Assembly: GCA_005879535.1 (NCBI GenBank)
Contig: VBKI01000051.1
Coordinates: forward strand, 3,817 to 67,816
DNA from: Deltaproteobacteria bacterium
Lineage (GTDB): Bacteria; Myxococcota; Myxococcia; Myxococcales; 40CM-4-68-19
Length of the DNA stretch: 64,000 bases
Reading direction: 5' to 3'
Below are positions 31,200-40,850 of this stretch, in pieces. Under the pieces are notes generated by a model. It was not told the origin of the DNA. It ran no database searches and saw only the letters and a list, made by a program, of their open reading frames with translations. How positions within the stretch are numbered: position 1 is the stretch's first letter; each line of letters opens with the position of its first letter. The position numbers and the translations under genes were made by a program.

Positions 31200-31712
31200 T
31201 CACGCCTTGGGCGGATGCTTCTGCAGCTTTCGCTGCAACGTCCGTCGGTGCATCTTCAGCCGGCGCGCGGCCTCGGAGATGTTGCCGTTGCAGTCGGCGA
31301 GGATCCGGTTGAGGTACTCCCATTCCTGGCGATCGAGGGAAGGCACGTCGCCGGGCGGCGGTGGACTCTTTCCCTGGAGCGCTGCCTCGATCTCGTCGGC
31401 GTCGGCCGGCTTGTTCAGGTAGTTGATGGCGCCGAGGCGGATCGCCTCCACGGCGGTCCCGATGGTTCCATAGCCGGTGAGGACCACTACCTGCGGCGGC
31501 TTCGCCAGGCCCCGGAGCGCGCGTACGACGTCGAGCCCCGATCCTCCCGGCATCCTCAGGTCCACGACCGCGTACTGCGGCGGATGATCGCGGACGGTCG
31601 CGTCCGCCTCCGCCGGCGACCCGGCCAGCAGCACCTCATACCCGCGGCGCGCGAACGCGTTGCGCAACGCAAGGCGAAAAGGCTCGTCGTCGTCGACGAT
31701 GAGGATGCGCAT
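31200..31712 (-). CDS. regA: RegA/PrrA-type response regulator
   Basis: The 170-residue regulator has a receiver domain with VDDDEP, phosphorylation site Asp51 (AVVDLRMPGGSG) and the conserved Lys in NYLNKPAD. A proline-rich linker (KSPPPPGDVPS) leads to a Fis-type helix-turn-helix, NISEAARRLKMHRRTLQRKL, which is close to that of alphaproteobacterial RegA/PrrA. It lies downstream of its likely kinase gene. It is probably a redox-responsive DNA-binding regulator of respiratory or sulfur-related genes. Confidence 0.9.
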   Translation of the reverse strand: MRILIVDDDEPFRLALRNAFARRGYEVLLAGSPAEADATVRDHPPQYAVVDLRMPGGSGLDVVRALRGLAKPPQVVVLTGYGTIGTAVEAIRLGAINYLNKPADADEIEAALQGKSPPPPGDVPSLDRQEWEYLNRILADCNGNISEAARRLKMHRRTLQRKLQKHPPKA

Positions 31713-31731: not shown

Positions 31732-33006
31732 TCAGACCTCGGGCATGGTCAGGGTCACGCTCGTGCCGCGACCCTCCGCGGAGTCGACGCGCATCTCTCC
31801 GCCCTGCCGCTCCACCACGTGGCGTGCGAGATAAAGCCCGAGCCCCGTGCCGCGCCCCGGCTCCTTGGTGGTGAAGAACGGCTCACCGATGCGTCGCAGG
31901 AGCGGCTCGGGAACACCCACGCCGTTGTCCACGACGGTGAGCTGCAGCTCCTCGCGGACCCGCTGCAGCGAGACGCGCACCTCGCGCGCGGCCCGGCCTT
32001 CGGTCGCCTCGGCGGCGTTGTCGAGTAGATTCGCGATCGCCTGCTCGAAGGCGCGCACGGGAAGCCGCGCGCGCGCGCGGACCGCCGCCGGATCCACGGA
32101 CAGCTCCGGGCGCGGTCCCGGCCGGCCCTCCTGCCACCGGCGCACCGCCGCCTGCAGGACCGGCGCCACTTCGAACTCCTTCGGCTCCTCCAGGTCGACA
32201 CCACCGCGCGGCGCCAACATGTTGCTGATGATCTCCTTGCACCGCTTCACCTGCCGGCGGACCTCTTCCGCCTCGCTGTGCCGGTCTCCTTCGAGCTGCG
32301 CCGCCAACTCGCCGGCGAGGATCTGGATCGTGCCGAGCGGCGTGTTCAGCTCGTGCGCGGTGCCGGCGGCCAGCGTCCCCAGCGCCGCCAGTCGTTCGGC
32401 GGCCTCCGCATCCGAGCGCGCCCGGTCGAGCTCCTCTCCGCGCCTGCGCAGCGATTCGCTCATCCGCAGAGAGAACGTGGAGATGAACGCCGCGGCAACT
32501 ACGAAGGCGATCCAGCGGCCGCGCAGGTGCAGGAGCGGCGCTTCGGCCTCGAGGGCGATCTCGTGAGAGGGAATGATCTGCAAGGCGCTGAAGGCGATCA
32601 CGCTGGCGAGGGCGAGGCCGATGCTCCAGCGCGCCGGCAGGATCACGGCGGCGATGGTGATGTGGACCAGATAGAGCACGGAAAAAGGATTTTCCCTGCC
32701 GCCCGAAAGGGCCAGAAGCGCGGTCAGCGCGGCGATGTCGGCGAGCAGGTTCAAGGCGCAGGCGCGGTCGGTCGGTCTGCCGCCGCGATCGAGCCAGATC
32801 TGCACGCCCAGATTGGCGAGGGCCAGCGCGCCGCAGACCGCCAGGAGGGCCGCGATCGGCAGCGCCATGCTCACCAGCCGGCGCGCGATCAGGATCGCCA
32901 TCACCTGGCCCGCCACCGCTCCCCAGCGCAAGCGCACGATCCAGCGCAGGTTGATCCGCGCGGCGGATTCGACGCTGGTCAGGGGGGCCATCTGCCGGAC
33001 CGCCAT
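31732..33006 (-). CDS. regB: RegB/PrrB-type redox sensor histidine kinase
   Basis: About 424 residues. The N-terminal half has about six membrane segments with the quinone-binding GGxxNPF motif (SGGRENPFSVLY). The H-box is GTAHELNTPLGTI and the RegB-type redox Cys lies in VKRCKEIISNML. The ATPase domain has NLLDNAAEATE, VVDNGVGVPEP and GRGTGLGLYLARH. ATG 33006 was chosen; 33015 and 32991 are in-frame alternatives. It is divergent from the YcaO gene with only 26 bases between starts. It should respond to quinone redox state. Confidence 0.9.
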   Translation of the reverse strand: MAVRQMAPLTSVESAARINLRWIVRLRWGAVAGQVMAILIARRLVSMALPIAALLAVCGALALANLGVQIWLDRGGRPTDRACALNLLADIAALTALLALSGGRENPFSVLYLVHITIAAVILPARWSIGLALASVIAFSALQIIPSHEIALEAEAPLLHLRGRWIAFVVAAAFISTFSLRMSESLRRRGEELDRARSDAEAAERLAALGTLAAGTAHELNTPLGTIQILAGELAAQLEGDRHSEAEEVRRQVKRCKEIISNMLAPRGGVDLEEPKEFEVAPVLQAAVRRWQEGRPGPRPELSVDPAAVRARARLPVRAFEQAIANLLDNAAEATEGRAAREVRVSLQRVREELQLTVVDNGVGVPEPLLRRIGEPFFTTKEPGRGTGLGLYLARHVVERQGGEMRVDSAEGRGTSVTLTMPEV

Positions 33007-33032
33007 GTCGCACATGCTACGTTGCTGCGCCG

Positions 33033-34028
33033 GTGGATGCACTGCAGAGCGCCCTCGGCGTGACGCGCGTCGCGCGCGTGACGGGCCTCGACCGCTCCGG
33101 CGTCGAGGTCGCGTGCGCGGTGCGTCCGCTCGGCCACGTCCTGCAGGTTTGCAACGGCAAGGGTGAGACGTGGGAAGAGGCGCGGGCTTCCGCGCTGTCC
33201 GAAGCGGCGGAGCTTTGGGCGGCGGAACGTCCGCGCGACCTGATCTACGCAGCCGCGCGCGATCTGCCGGACGCATGGGAGCCGGAGGACTTCGTCGCGC
33301 CGCGGCTCTGGTCCGCCGCGACGCGCATCGCCTGGCGATCCGCGCGCGATCTCTTCACCGGACGCCGGGTCCTCGTCCCGGCGCAGGCCGTCTATTGTCC
33401 GCCGCGCGGGGCTCCGCCGCTGGGCCCGGCGGCGATCCGCTGGAGCACGAACGGCATGGGCGCCCATCCGGTGCGGTCTGCGGCGCTGCGCCACGCGCTG
33501 CTGGAGTCGATCGAGCGCGACCAGCTCGCGCGCGCGCTGCCGCGCGGCTGGACGGCGCAGGCCGTCGCGCGCCGGAAGCTCGACGTCCGAGGCATGCCGC
33601 TCTGGCAGCGGCTTCGCGATGCGAAGCTCGAGGCGCACGTCTTCGATCTCTCGAGCGTCCTTCCGGTGGCGGGCGCCATCCTCGTCGATCTCGACGAAGG
33701 GCCCCTCCCGGTGACGGCAGGGTACGCCTGCGCTCTGCGGCCGCTGGATGCCGTGCGCGGCGCGATGCTGGAGGCTGCGCAGTCGCGCCTCACCGATGTG
33801 CATGGCGCTCGCGAAGACGTCACGCCAGCGGATCGCCCTTCGATGCGGGCGCTGCGCCGGGCGTGTGAGCGTGCCCGGCCGCGGCGCTCGCTCCGTTCGA
33901 TGCCGTCGGCGCGCGACGCACGCGAGGGTCTGCGCGGCCGGCGCGTCGCGGTGGTCGAGCTCGCGCGGGAGCCGCTTCACGTGATCAAGGTGTTTGCGCC
34001 CGGTCTGCAGCTGTCGGGGCTGCTGTGA
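33033..34028 (+). CDS. YcaO-domain protein, TfuA-associated
   Basis: YcaO enzymes use ATP to activate peptide amides. The 331-residue protein keeps the ATP/Mg site residues: E57 and E60 in SALSEAAE, E158, E161 and D163 in LLESIERD, and E247, Q250 and R252 in LEAAQSRL. STNGMGAHP (138-146) is also conserved. It lacks the C-terminal proline-rich (PxPxP) tail of azoline-forming cyclodehydratases and ends at VIKVFAPGLQL. The GTG start at 33033 opens at the first conserved helix. Its last four bases overlap tfuA. The predicted role is thioamide formation with TfuA; the substrate is unknown. Confidence 0.9.
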   Translation: MDALQSALGVTRVARVTGLDRSGVEVACAVRPLGHVLQVCNGKGETWEEARASALSEAAELWAAERPRDLIYAAARDLPDAWEPEDFVAPRLWSAATRIAWRSARDLFTGRRVLVPAQAVYCPPRGAPPLGPAAIRWSTNGMGAHPVRSAALRHALLESIERDQLARALPRGWTAQAVARRKLDVRGMPLWQRLRDAKLEAHVFDLSSVLPVAGAILVDLDEGPLPVTAGYACALRPLDAVRGAMLEAAQSRLTDVHGAREDVTPADRPSMRALRRACERARPRRSLRSMPSARDAREGLRGRRVAVVELAREPLHVIKVFAPGLQLSGLL

Positions 34029-34972
34029 TCGTCGCCTTCCTCGGGCCCTCGCTTCCCGCGCGCGAAGCGAAAGGATTTCATCTGCTCCCGCCGGCGCGGC
34101 AGGGCGACGTCTGGCGCGCGCTCGGCCTCCGCCCGCGCGCGATCGCGCTGATCGACGGCGTGTTCGAAGCCCAGCCCAGCGTCTGGCACCGCGAGATTCT
34201 CGACGCGCTCGATGCCGGCGTTCCCGTGGTGGGCGGCGCGAGCATGGGGGCGCTGCGGGCCGCGGAGCTCCGCACCCTGGGTATGACGGGGGTGGGGCGG
34301 ATCTTCCGCTGGTACCGCGACGGGACCGTGATCGACGACGCGGAGGTCGCGCTACTGCATGCGGACGCGGAGCACGGGTACCGCGCGCTGACCGTTCCAC
34401 TCGTCAACGTCCGCTGGTCCGCACAGCGCTGCCTTCCGCCACGCGCGGCGAAACGGATGATCGAGGCGTCGTCGCGCCTTTTCTACCAGGAGCGGACGGA
34501 AGGCGCGGTGCTCGATCTGGTGCCGGCCCGTTTTCGCGGCCGGTTCAGGCTGATCGACCTCAAGGCGGAGGACGCGCGCCAGGTTCTTCGAGCTACCCGC
34601 GCCGCGCGCCCTCGTCCCGTCCGGCCCCGCGAGCCAGCGCCGTCCTCGCTGGTACGCCGGCGCAGGTTGCTGGCAACGGCGCAGGCAGATGGCGCAGGCG
34701 AGATGGCCCGCGCCGGACTCCGACGCGCCCTCCTCGCTGGCTGGGCGCGCGAGCTCGGACTGCGCCCGGCGGCGCGCGAGCTCGAGAGGGCGCGAGCGCA
34801 GCTCGCCGGGAACGCTGCGCCGGACGACCTGGAGCGCCTCGCCGAGGAGATCGCGCTCGAGGAGCTGGTCCTCGCCCACGCGCCGCGGATGCTGAACGAC
34901 GGTCCGTCGCCGGAAGAGGCGCTCGCCGCCGAGCTGCGCACGCGCGTCGGGCATCGAGGACCGCGCTCGTAA
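34025..34972 (+). CDS. tfuA: TfuA-domain protein
   Basis: The 315-residue protein carries the full TfuA core: VAFLGPSLP (3-11), LPPARQGDVWRAL (21-33), IALIDGVFEAQPSVWHREIL (40-59), GASMGALRAAELRTLGM (71-87), GVGRIFRWYRDG and DDAEVALLHA. The C-terminal third (about 190-315) is arginine-rich and variable. It is translationally coupled to YcaO by a four-base overlap. TfuA proteins partner YcaO in thioamidation, probably by delivering sulfide. GTG or ATG use at 34025 follows the overlapping-start convention here. Confidence 0.9.
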   Translation: MIVAFLGPSLPAREAKGFHLLPPARQGDVWRALGLRPRAIALIDGVFEAQPSVWHREILDALDAGVPVVGGASMGALRAAELRTLGMTGVGRIFRWYRDGTVIDDAEVALLHADAEHGYRALTVPLVNVRWSAQRCLPPRAAKRMIEASSRLFYQERTEGAVLDLVPARFRGRFRLIDLKAEDARQVLRATRAARPRPVRPREPAPSSLVRRRRLLATAQADGAGEMARAGLRRALLAGWARELGLRPAARELERARAQLAGNAAPDDLERLAEEIALEELVLAHAPRMLNDGPSPEEALAAELRTRVGHRGPRS

Positions 34973-35009
34973 CTCTTGCGGCGGCGCCGGGCGCGGCTTA
35001 AAGAGCCGC

Positions 35010-36917
35010 ATGACCGCCGCCGCCCTGCTTTCCGGATCGCCGGATGCTTTCCTGCGTGGGTCCAGCGACGACCTGCAGCGCGCCCGCGCCGCGGTCTCCC
35101 GTCTGAAGGCCCTCGACCCTTCGCTGCAGACCTTGCGCGCCTGGGACGAGGCGACCGGCGCGATCTCCGACGCGAGCGCACGCGCCTCGCTGCTCCGCTC
35201 GGTGCATCCCGATCCTGCCATGCGCGATGCCGGCGAACGCTGCGAGCAGGAAGCGGAGGCGCTCGCCACCGCCCTGGCGCTCGACCCGGAGGTGTACGGG
35301 CCGCTCTCCCGCATCGACGCCTCGGGGGAGGACGAGACGACGCGCTGGTACCTGTTCCGCGTGCTTCGCGATTTCCGCCGGGCGGGCGTCGACAAGGACG
35401 AGCCCACGCGAGCGCGGGTGCGTGCTCTGAACGAGGAGTTGGTCCGCATCGGCCAGGAATTCCAGCGCAACATCCGCGACGACGTGCGGAGCATCCAGGT
35501 CGGTCCTGACGGGCTCGAGGGTCTTCCGCCGGACTACGTGCGCGCCCATGCGTCGGGCACCATCACGACCGATTCTCCCGATTACATCCCGTTCATGACG
35601 TATTCGCGCAGCAGCTCCGCGCGCGAGCAACTCTGGAAGGTCTACCGCCAACGCGCGCATCCGCGAAACCTGGAGGTGCTCGACCGGATGCTCGCCCGCC
35701 GCCACGAGATGGCGAGGCTGCTCCGCTACGAGAGCTGGGCGGCGTACGTGACGGAGGACAAGATGATCGGCAGCGCCGCGGCGGCGAACGACTTCATCGA
35801 GCGGATCGCCTCGGCGGCGGAGGCCAGGGCCCGGAAGGATTACGAAACGCTCCTGGCGCGGAAGCGGCGCGACGATCCGGCCGCCGAAGGCATCGACGCC
35901 TGGGATTCCGAAGCGCTCAAGGAGCGCGTGCGCGCCGAGCAGCTCGGGTTCGACTCGCAGTCCGTGCGTCCCTTTTTCGAGGTCCGCCGCGTGATGGACG
36001 GCGTCCTCGACGCCACCGCACGCATGTTCGGCGTCGAGTACCGGCGCTTGCCGGATGCTGCCGTCTGGCACGACGACGTCACCGCCTGGGAAGTGGTGGA
36101 GCGCGGGACCGCGATCGGTCGCTTTTTCCTCGACCTGTTCCCGCGCGAGGGGAAGTACAAGCACGCGGCGCAGTTCACGCTGGCCTCGGGCGTGCGCGAT
36201 GGGACGCTTCCCGAGGCTGCGCTGGTCTGCAATTTCCCCCGCCCCTCGCGCGAGGCCGCGCTGCTCGACCATGGCGAAGTGGTGACGTTCTTCCACGAGT
36301 TCGGACACCTGTTGCACCATCTGCTCGGCGGCCACACCCGCTGGAGGGGGATCTCCGGCGTGCGGACCGAATGGGACTTCGTGGAGGCGCCTTCGCAGAT
36401 GCTGGAGGAATGGTGCTGGGACGCCTCGGTCCTGCGGCGTTTCGCGCGCCACGTCGAGACCGGCGAGTCGATCCCGGCGGCGCTGGTCGATCGCATGCGC
36501 GGGGCCGACGAGTTTGGCAAGGGGCTGCGCGTCCGGCAGCAGATGTTCTACGCTGCCACTTCGCTCCGTCTTCACGACCGCGATCCCAAGGGGCTGGATA
36601 CGACGGCGCTCTCCGCGGAGCAGCAGGAGCGCTATACGCCGTTCCGCCACGTTCCCGGAACGTACTTCCACGAGAGCTTCGGCCATCTCGAGGGCTACTC
36701 GGCGATCTACTACACGTACATGTGGTCGCTGGTGATTGCGAAGGACCTGTTCGGCGTCTTTCGCCGGGAGGGCCTGCTCAACCCCGCGGCGGCGGCGCGC
36801 TACCGGCGCGCCGTCCTCGAGCCCGGCGGCGGTCGCCCGGCGGCGCGGCTGGTCGAGGACTTCCTCGGGCGCGAGACTTCCTTCGACGCGTTCGCCGAGT
36901 GGCTCAACGCGGCGTGA
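35010..36917 (+). CDS. M3-family metallopeptidase (oligopeptidase-like)
   Basis: The 635-residue enzyme is a thimet-oligopeptidase-type zinc peptidase. It has the zinc site HEFGH at 429-433 with a further Glu downstream in the GVRTEWDFVEAPSQMLEEW stretch, plus the M3 hallmarks FVEAPSQMLEEW and the substrate-binding HESFGHLEGYSAIYYTYMW. No signal peptide is present. It starts 37 bases after tfuA on the same strand, so it is probably in the operon and could process the modified peptide, but housekeeping peptide turnover is equally possible. Confidence 0.92.
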   Translation: MTAAALLSGSPDAFLRGSSDDLQRARAAVSRLKALDPSLQTLRAWDEATGAISDASARASLLRSVHPDPAMRDAGERCEQEAEALATALALDPEVYGPLSRIDASGEDETTRWYLFRVLRDFRRAGVDKDEPTRARVRALNEELVRIGQEFQRNIRDDVRSIQVGPDGLEGLPPDYVRAHASGTITTDSPDYIPFMTYSRSSSAREQLWKVYRQRAHPRNLEVLDRMLARRHEMARLLRYESWAAYVTEDKMIGSAAAANDFIERIASAAEARARKDYETLLARKRRDDPAAEGIDAWDSEALKERVRAEQLGFDSQSVRPFFEVRRVMDGVLDATARMFGVEYRRLPDAAVWHDDVTAWEVVERGTAIGRFFLDLFPREGKYKHAAQFTLASGVRDGTLPEAALVCNFPRPSREAALLDHGEVVTFFHEFGHLLHHLLGGHTRWRGISGVRTEWDFVEAPSQMLEEWCWDASVLRRFARHVETGESIPAALVDRMRGADEFGKGLRVRQQMFYAATSLRLHDRDPKGLDTTALSAEQQERYTPFRHVPGTYFHESFGHLEGYSAIYYTYMWSLVIAKDLFGVFRREGLLNPAAAARYRRAVLEPGGGRPAARLVEDFLGRETSFDAFAEWLNAA

Positions 36918-38847: not shown

Positions 38848-38927
38848 CCCGGGCAGACAACCAGGCAGGCGCCCTTCTCTCGCCCCTGCCGTAGTCCGTG
38901 CGCAAGCTCCCTCGCGGGGGGAGCCGT

Positions 38928-40850
38928 ATGCACAGGTATTTGTTAGCCATCGCCGCCGGTGCGATGGCGTGTGGGCGCTACCCCGCGGGGCAGGCGACGG
39001 TCACGATCGCTGTCAGCGGGCCTGGAGCGGTGCGGACATCGAATCTGAACGGCGATTGCCGGGCGACGTGCTGGTTTTCCGTCGACCGCGAAGTGCCCGT
39101 GCACCTCGAGCCTATTCCCGGCAGCCAGGCTGTCTTCGCAGGATGGACGGGAGGCTGCCACGGAACGGGAACCTGCGACCTCAAGCCGGCCCTCGACGTC
39201 TCCGTCGCCGCCACCTTCATGCCTGCCACGCCGCGCCGGCTGCAAGTCTCGCTGAACGGAGCGGGCGAGGTCCGCAGCGATCCGCCCGGCATCGATTGCC
39301 CGCAGAGCTGCGCGGCGAACTTTCCCGAGGGGACCTCCGTGACCCTCTATCCGTCCGCCGCCGCCGGCTGGGGCTTTACCGGCTTCGGCGGCGCCTGCGC
39401 CGGCCCCGCTTGCACCATCACGCTCGCCGCGGACGCGGCCGCGGTTGCGACCTTCATCCTCAATCCTGTCGAGCTCGCGCTGCAGGTGACCGGCGGAGGT
39501 TCGGTCGTCTCGACCCCTGCTGCCATCGACTGCCCCGGCGTGTGCTCCGCCATCTTCGCGCCCGGGACCGCGGTCACCTTGACCGCCTCGGCAACAGTGG
39601 GTTCGACGTTCGCGGGTTTCTCCGGTGGGTGCACGGGTCCGTCATGCTCGCTGCGCCTGACCGCCCCGGCGTCGGTCTCGGCAGCGTTCGCGCTGATTCC
39701 CACGTTCAAGGTCACGGTCGTGACCGCAGGCAACGGAGTGGGCCGCGTCACCTCGAGCCCGGCCGGCATCGATTGCCCGGGCACCTGCGGGACGATCTTC
39801 CCGGTGGACACGGCCGTCACCCTGTCCGCAGCGGCCGACGCGCTCTCGAAGTTCGCGGGATTCGACGGCACCTGTTCCGGGGCGGCGTGCACTCTCAGGG
39901 TCGCCGCGGACGCCGCCGTGGTCGCGAAGTTCGACCCACGCCGTTACGCCGCGCGGGACCTGAGCGTTCCGGGCGGCGGGTGGTGGACCGCGCCGACCGG
40001 AATCAGCCGCACGGGCACCCTGGTCGCGGGCACCTGGGGCGGCAGCGCGCAGCAGATGTTCGTCTGGGACGGCGCGATCCACGACTCGGGTATTTTCACG
40101 CCGTGGGTCGGCGGCGTGAACGAATATGGCGTCGTGGTCGGTTCGATCAACGCTGAAAGCGGCTGGCACGCGTTCCGCTGGAAAGCAGGCCTCGTCACCG
40201 ACCTGGGAACTCTCGGCGGCCCGAGCAGCAATGCCCTCGGCGTCAACGGCGACGGAATCGTCGCCGGATGGTCGATGCGCGCAGACGGCGTGCAGCGCGC
40301 GGTCGCCTGGACTGCACAGGGGATCGTCGACCTGGGCTCGCTGGTGGACGGCGGCTGCTCCTACGCGAACGGCATCAACTCAGCCGGAGTCATCGTCGGC
40401 TCCACCTGTACCGCCGCTGCTGGCGTGCGCGCTGCCCGCTTCCGCGGCCCGGGCCTCATCGACGATCTCGGGTCGTTCGGAGGCACCACGATCGCTCTGG
40501 CAATCAATGACTCGGGGTTGATCGTCGGATATTCGTATCTGCCGAACGGCACCTTTCACGGGTTCGTCTACAGCGACGGCAAGATGATCGATGCCGGCAC
40601 GCTGCCCGGAATGCCGTACACCCAGCTTGCGGCGGTGAACGGGGACGGCCTCGCCGTCGGCCACGCCACGGACGGCATGGTCATCTCCCATGCTGTCCTC
40701 TACGGCGGCGGCCGCATGGTGGACCTGAACTCCGTGGTCGACGAGACGCCGTACACGCTCGGTTCGGCGAGCGGGATCGACGAGGCGGGAAACATCGTCG
40801 TCACGACCACGAACGGGCCGATGCGCGCGCTGCTGCTCTGCCCGCAGTAA
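38928..40850 (+). CDS. Lipoprotein-like protein with InlB-type and HAF repeats
   Basis: The 640-residue protein begins at ATG 38928 (GGGGGAG upstream). A signal MHRYLLAIAAGAMACGRYP could be a lipobox. Four divergent InlB-B-type repeats follow (about 20-330; each has CP..C, GT.VTL, FAGFSG.C, then an AAF or ATF end). Residues about 345-640 carry HAF-family extracellular repeats (DLGTLGGPSSNALGVNGDGIVAG-like, with G-x-VVG-x-HAF.W). Conserved cysteines suggest disulfides. It is probably exposed on the outer surface. Function is unknown. Confidence 0.85.
   Translation: MHRYLLAIAAGAMACGRYPAGQATVTIAVSGPGAVRTSNLNGDCRATCWFSVDREVPVHLEPIPGSQAVFAGWTGGCHGTGTCDLKPALDVSVAATFMPATPRRLQVSLNGAGEVRSDPPGIDCPQSCAANFPEGTSVTLYPSAAAGWGFTGFGGACAGPACTITLAADAAAVATFILNPVELALQVTGGGSVVSTPAAIDCPGVCSAIFAPGTAVTLTASATVGSTFAGFSGGCTGPSCSLRLTAPASVSAAFALIPTFKVTVVTAGNGVGRVTSSPAGIDCPGTCGTIFPVDTAVTLSAAADALSKFAGFDGTCSGAACTLRVAADAAVVAKFDPRRYAARDLSVPGGGWWTAPTGISRTGTLVAGTWGGSAQQMFVWDGAIHDSGIFTPWVGGVNEYGVVVGSINAESGWHAFRWKAGLVTDLGTLGGPSSNALGVNGDGIVAGWSMRADGVQRAVAWTAQGIVDLGSLVDGGCSYANGINSAGVIVGSTCTAAAGVRAARFRGPGLIDDLGSFGGTTIALAINDSGLIVGYSYLPNGTFHGFVYSDGKMIDAGTLPGMPYTQLAAVNGDGLAVGHATDGMVISHAVLYGGGRMVDLNSVVDETPYTLGSASGIDEAGNIVVTTTNGPMRALLLCPQ

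Follow-up and report, generated by a model that had tools for sequence, protein, structure and literature searches.

What do the adjacent YcaO and TfuA proteins encoded in this window (the whole 64,000-nucleotide stretch of DNA analysed here) modify, when no gene for a precursor peptide is visible beside them, and does the M3 metallopeptidase gene that follows them take part? The open reading frames and their Pfam families confirm the arrangement described in an earlier note on this DNA (Table 1): ycaO and tfuA overlap by 4 bases (GTGA), the M3 gene, whose product carries the motif HEFGH (36294–36308), lies 37 bases beyond tfuA, and all three genes are on the same strand. The genes that precede ycaO are, moving away from it, a divergent RegB/ActS-like kinase gene, a RegA/ActR-like regulator gene and then an ABC-F ATPase gene. 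The divergent RegB and YcaO starts are only ~17 bases apart (33015–33033, taking the RegB ATG at 33015), and there is no obvious ribosome-binding site for YcaO.

Table 1. Features of the YcaO–TfuA locus in window coordinates; for the Exo_endo_phos genes of other genomes, the locus number precedes the coordinates.
Feature	Coordinates	Strand	Details
ycaO	33033–34028	+	GTG start, 331 aa; PF02624 E 2e-43
tfuA	34025–34972	+	GTG start, 315 aa; PF07812 E 2.7e-40
M3 oligopeptidase-like metallopeptidase	35010–36917	+	ATG start, 635 aa; PF01432 E 4.3e-102
RegB/ActS/PrrB-like redox histidine kinase, divergent neighbour	31735–33015	−	NF033792 E 1.4e-71, below cut-off
RegA/ActR/PrrA-like response regulator, neighbour	31200–31712	−	NF033791 E 6.9e-58, below cut-off
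Recast ATP-site motif II of YcaO, WSTNGMGAHPVRSAALRHALLESIERD	33441–33521	+	Alignments with EcYcaO and core clade
YcaO His codon at EcYcaO Gly186 position	33465–33467	+	Alignment
YcaO Ala codon at EcYcaO Glu191 position	33480–33482	+	Alignment
TfuA Ser in GGASMGALRAAE, probably catalytic	34241–34243	+	S72, invariant in clade; conserved in 6xp8
TfuA Lys in DLKAEDAR, candidate catalytic Lys	34562–34564	+	Invariant in clade; present in RiPP-type TfuAs
C-terminal helical extension of TfuA	34517–34972	+	Kept within order; no Pfam match
Exo_endo_phos protein	L131 733–1653		
Exo_endo_phos protein	L132 548–1480		
Exo_endo_phos protein	L133 4308–5231		
Exo_endo_phos protein	L134 4392–5318		
Exo_endo_phos protein	L135 4380–5306		
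Exo_endo_phos protein	L139 277–1218		
Exo_endo_phos protein	L128 733–1659		
Exo_endo_phos protein	L040 10829–11755		

The earlier note suggested that the peptidase could trim the product of the pair, which would make YcaO, TfuA and M3 a single operon. The short gap and shared strand in the window are what such an operon would have, and the RegA-RegB-YcaO-TfuA-M3 order is kept in the window's own family, where five loci have M3 at most a few kb further on; outside this family, however, the adjacency is not conserved, and even within it other genes intervene, namely a ~350 aa gene between TfuA and M3 in L052, L053, L054 and L058 (that of L053, the one scanned, has TrkA domains) and a DUF885 gene in L056. 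Of 60 genomes from the order, 53 have an orthologue of the M3 peptidase, usually far from YcaO-TfuA (on single-contig chromosomes M3 and the pair lie at 0.48 and 1.03 Mb in G022, 4.90 and 1.04 Mb in G033, and 7.05 and 2.79 Mb in G038, respectively), and among them are TfuA-negative genomes such as G010, G012, G027 and G041. In two genomes of the window's genus, G005 and G006 (loci L077 and L078), RegB lies directly beside M3 and YcaO-TfuA is absent. L078 retains a stretch like the first ycaO bases (GTGGATGCA) and then resumes upstream of the M3 start, and the flanking alignment at this empty site is continuous through the start codon; the site can be read as a deletion of YcaO-TfuA that left a scar, although the last few bases may match by coincidence. 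Because M3 is found at unrelated positions, in genomes that lack TfuA, and at two sites where the pair is missing, the single operon with a trimming peptidase is very improbable. The unit consists of two genes, ycaO and tfuA, and stands alone; the M3 peptidase gene next to it is unrelated.

The window YcaO is closest among the NCBIfam profiles to TIGR03266, the YcaO of McrA-glycine thioamidation, at 125.4 bits (below its cut-off of 365), and it scores 81.9 bits against the azoline-type SagD/TOMM profile TIGR03604 (cut-off 219). Its AlphaFold2 model (pLDDT 88.4) has M. jannaschii and M. kandleri YcaO as best PDB matches. The protein shares the YcaO fold with the azoline cyclodehydratases but, as the earlier note had observed, has no PxPxP tail and terminates in KVFAPGLQLSGLL, and it is partnered by TfuA in place of a C protein. 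The window TfuA reaches 150.3 bits against NF033432, below the cut-off of 235.2, and matches PDB entry 6xp8 both by sequence (E 4.5e-28) and by fold (E 4.4e-13); its model has a pLDDT of 83 and a pTM of 0.62, and M. acetivorans TfuA is its sole significant structural match. Both proteins thus have characterised thioamide formers as their closest relatives by profile and structure, which upholds the thioamide link first suggested for them; the thioamide chemistry of the pair itself is inferred from this homology, and TfuA is the presumed sulfur-transfer partner of YcaO. TfuA keeps the Ser of GASMGALRA and one Lys, both invariant in the clade, and we take a Ser-Lys pair to be catalytic in this family, so that this Ser is probably the catalytic one and the Lys a candidate. 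The C-terminal extension of TfuA has PSSLVRRR-like and DGPS motifs and no known domain.

The ATP site of YcaO is less conventional. Alignment with E. coli YcaO (EcYcaO), at positions that we take from the E. coli YcaO structure to be ATP- and magnesium-binding residues, bears out only in part the earlier statement that the ATP-site Glu residues are kept: those at the Glu75, Glu199, Glu202 and Glu290 positions (and, by eye, Glu78) are retained, but Glu191 is replaced by Ala, and Gly186, Asn187 and Arg286 are replaced by His, Pro and Gly, respectively. Across the core clade formed by the window YcaO and its orthologues, Glu75, Glu199, Glu202, Arg203, Glu290 and Gln293 are invariant; EcYcaO Glu78 sits in an alignment gap, and the second Glu of the same helix (E59) is invariant. 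The Gly186 position is His in all 65 readable core rows (in which some genomes are counted twice), position 191 is non-acidic in the same rows, and Asn187 is Pro in most. Eleven further core loci (L129–L139) also have His at the Gly186 position wherever motif II is readable (it is not cleanly so in L136, nor in the further locus L128), and two of the eleven, the deep members L129 and L130, combine this His with a Glu at position 191. The loss of Glu191 in the core clade is therefore nearly, not fully, universal, and the His and Glu191 changes are separable; the loss of Glu191 may be a later step than the gain of His.

M. jannaschii and M. kandleri YcaO retain Glu191. With this residue lost in nearly all members and His in place of Gly186, the ATP-site loop of the clade is unlike that of the characterised thioamide formers, and its activity or chemistry could differ from theirs. 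The pair might perform some other amide-derived modification or an ATP-dependent peptide cleavage of the YcaO type, or might be a non-catalytic regulator. The retention of the canonical loop (GLASGN..EA) in all eight RiPP-type Myxococcota YcaOs examined gives this idea some weight, as does the presence among the fold matches of 7u58, a YcaO with ATP-dependent peptidase activity. Set against it are the six invariant ATP-site residues (above), the Ser and Lys kept by TfuA, the continued pairing of YcaO with TfuA (they adjoin in nearly all loci inspected), and L129 and L130, according to which the Glu loss may be secondary. We judge a different chemistry, or none, to be unlikely, though it deserves to be kept in mind.

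The distribution of the pair bears on the kind of substrate that might be expected. In a search of 190 genomes of the phylum with a profile of the window's YcaO type, 103 (tallied by hand from the results table) reach 300 bits or more with a single match and none with two; all 103 belong to the window's order. This restriction was assessed within the phylum and on plasmids, and the plasmid YcaO matches listed are below 40% identity. The other YcaOs listed score at most 203 bits, except for a G153 fragment that reaches 215; RiPP-type YcaOs stay within the 203 bits and number zero to four copies per genome. The window's own genome has one YcaO and one TfuA. The pair has scattered absences (for example in G005/G006, G010, G011, genus g18 and G024, and four g24 genomes show only a RiPP-type match) in a survey that includes some incomplete genomes, so any modification it makes must be dispensable. 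In the YcaO and TfuA trees alike, support of 100/100 separates the core clade from two RiPP-type pairs, L055 and L034. The window falls among the members of its family, and the trees recover most of the groups within families, although strict monophyly does not hold for families f4 and f6 and the positions of several long branches are unstable. Such trees are compatible with mainly vertical descent but are not proof of it. Some genomes have RiPP-type YcaO-TfuA pairs (L055 in G007, L034 and L035 in G046, and L121–L127) alongside the core pair, and the two that were measured, L055 and L034, have pI values of 5.4 to 5.8, compared with 10.4 and 11.0 for the window YcaO and TfuA.

The genes beside the pair differ from lineage to lineage: RegB with M3, TrkA or DUF885 in f1 (RegB adjacency to ycaO is syntenic only in the window's family), a protein kinase and an ECF sigma factor in f4, Exo_endo_phos and EamA in deep f4, an M20 peptidase in f6 and an alpha/beta hydrolase in f9. 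The strongly conserved Exo_endo_phos protein (~309 aa), encoded closely 3′ of TfuA in deep f4 genomes, was considered as a partner and rejected, since its orthologue lies elsewhere in most genomes (in the window's genome at G000:C85:8974-9894), is found where TfuA is absent and is lacking from several genomes that have TfuA. When short ORFs near the pair were compared across families, all matches were low-complexity or antisense shadows of ycaO, and no conserved precursor emerged. An equivalent search beside the RiPP-type pairs likewise gave no convincing precursor and hence no usable positive control, so that this negative result has limited sensitivity and is weak on its own; the lack of space is the stronger argument, all gaps around the pair being shorter than 40 bases in two loci of different families, the window and L134. 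The variable neighbours and the lack of a conserved precursor nearby indicate, in agreement with the earlier note, that the target is encoded elsewhere. On a Rhizobium plasmid (L146), unlike in the window, a short ORF (2158–2421) that is a possible RiPP precursor directly precedes ycaO-tfuA.

A target encoded elsewhere could itself be a short precursor peptide, which the pair would thioamidate in trans as a RiPP system. Genome mining has treated bacterial TfuA-YcaO pairs as RiPP clusters (PMC8120280, PMC6511847), and the RiPP-type pairs of the same order share with the window, and with thioamitide systems, the side-by-side placement of YcaO and TfuA. Unlike the window pair, however, they keep the canonical loop, form a separate clade and vary in copy number, whereas the core pair is present once per genome across several families and groups by family in the trees; moreover, no transporter or tailoring gene is kept beside it across the loci inspected. 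We regard a RiPP precursor in trans as improbable.

The explanation toward which we lean, with modest confidence, is that YcaO-TfuA is a trans-acting backbone-thioamidation pair, probably protein-directed, with its substrate encoded elsewhere in the genome. With ATP bound, YcaO would activate an amide in the backbone of its protein substrate; TfuA would supply YcaO with sulfide drawn from a ThiS-type carrier in thiocarboxylated form, and the exchange of oxygen for sulfur (+16 Da) would give a backbone thioamide. We infer both the protein nature of the substrate and the ThiS donor; the window's own genome encodes five ThiS-like carriers. The most likely substrate would be a cellular protein that the order shares, in the way that methanogens share McrA, and not a RiPP precursor.

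McrA and ribosomal protein uL16 are known to carry thioamides in their backbones (PMC5589413, PMC13063428). The pair resembles the methanogen McrA pair (PMC5589413) in its adjacent ycaO and tfuA with overlapping stop and start, in having no precursor peptide, and in the nearest profile and structural matches of both proteins; it differs in falling below the TIGR03266 and NF033432 equivalog cut-offs, in the YcaO without Glu191 and in the additional C-terminal region of TfuA. McrA was rejected as the target, since a PF02249 search of the window's own genome gave no mcrA match. E. coli YcaO, which belongs to an acidic group and modifies uL16 without TfuA (PMC13063428), is like the window YcaO in being a single YcaO with no local precursor, but it has a pI of 4.4, a length of 586 aa and no TfuA, against 10.4, 331 aa and a TfuA partner here. 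These differences between the enzymes in pI, size and partner make uL16 an unlikely target of the pair. The pair may provide a third example of a backbone thioamide on a cellular protein, here a protein conserved in the window's order and modified by a YcaO clade whose ATP site functions although Glu191 is gone and the His is invariant; we offer this more specific suggestion only tentatively. Among the open-licence papers searched, no title or abstract describes an orphan myxobacterial pair of this kind, and the clusters named in the passages retrieved are all predicted thioamitide or TfuA-related ones.

A single-copy orphan pair spread through an order that has culturable species would make the targets of orphan TfuA-associated YcaOs directly testable, and the altered ATP site of the clade provides a test of which YcaO active-site residues are needed. 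Farther downstream in the window, positions 38898–40850 encode a large protein of internally repeated segments with CPGxC motifs, which has multiple matches at the loci of two relatives.
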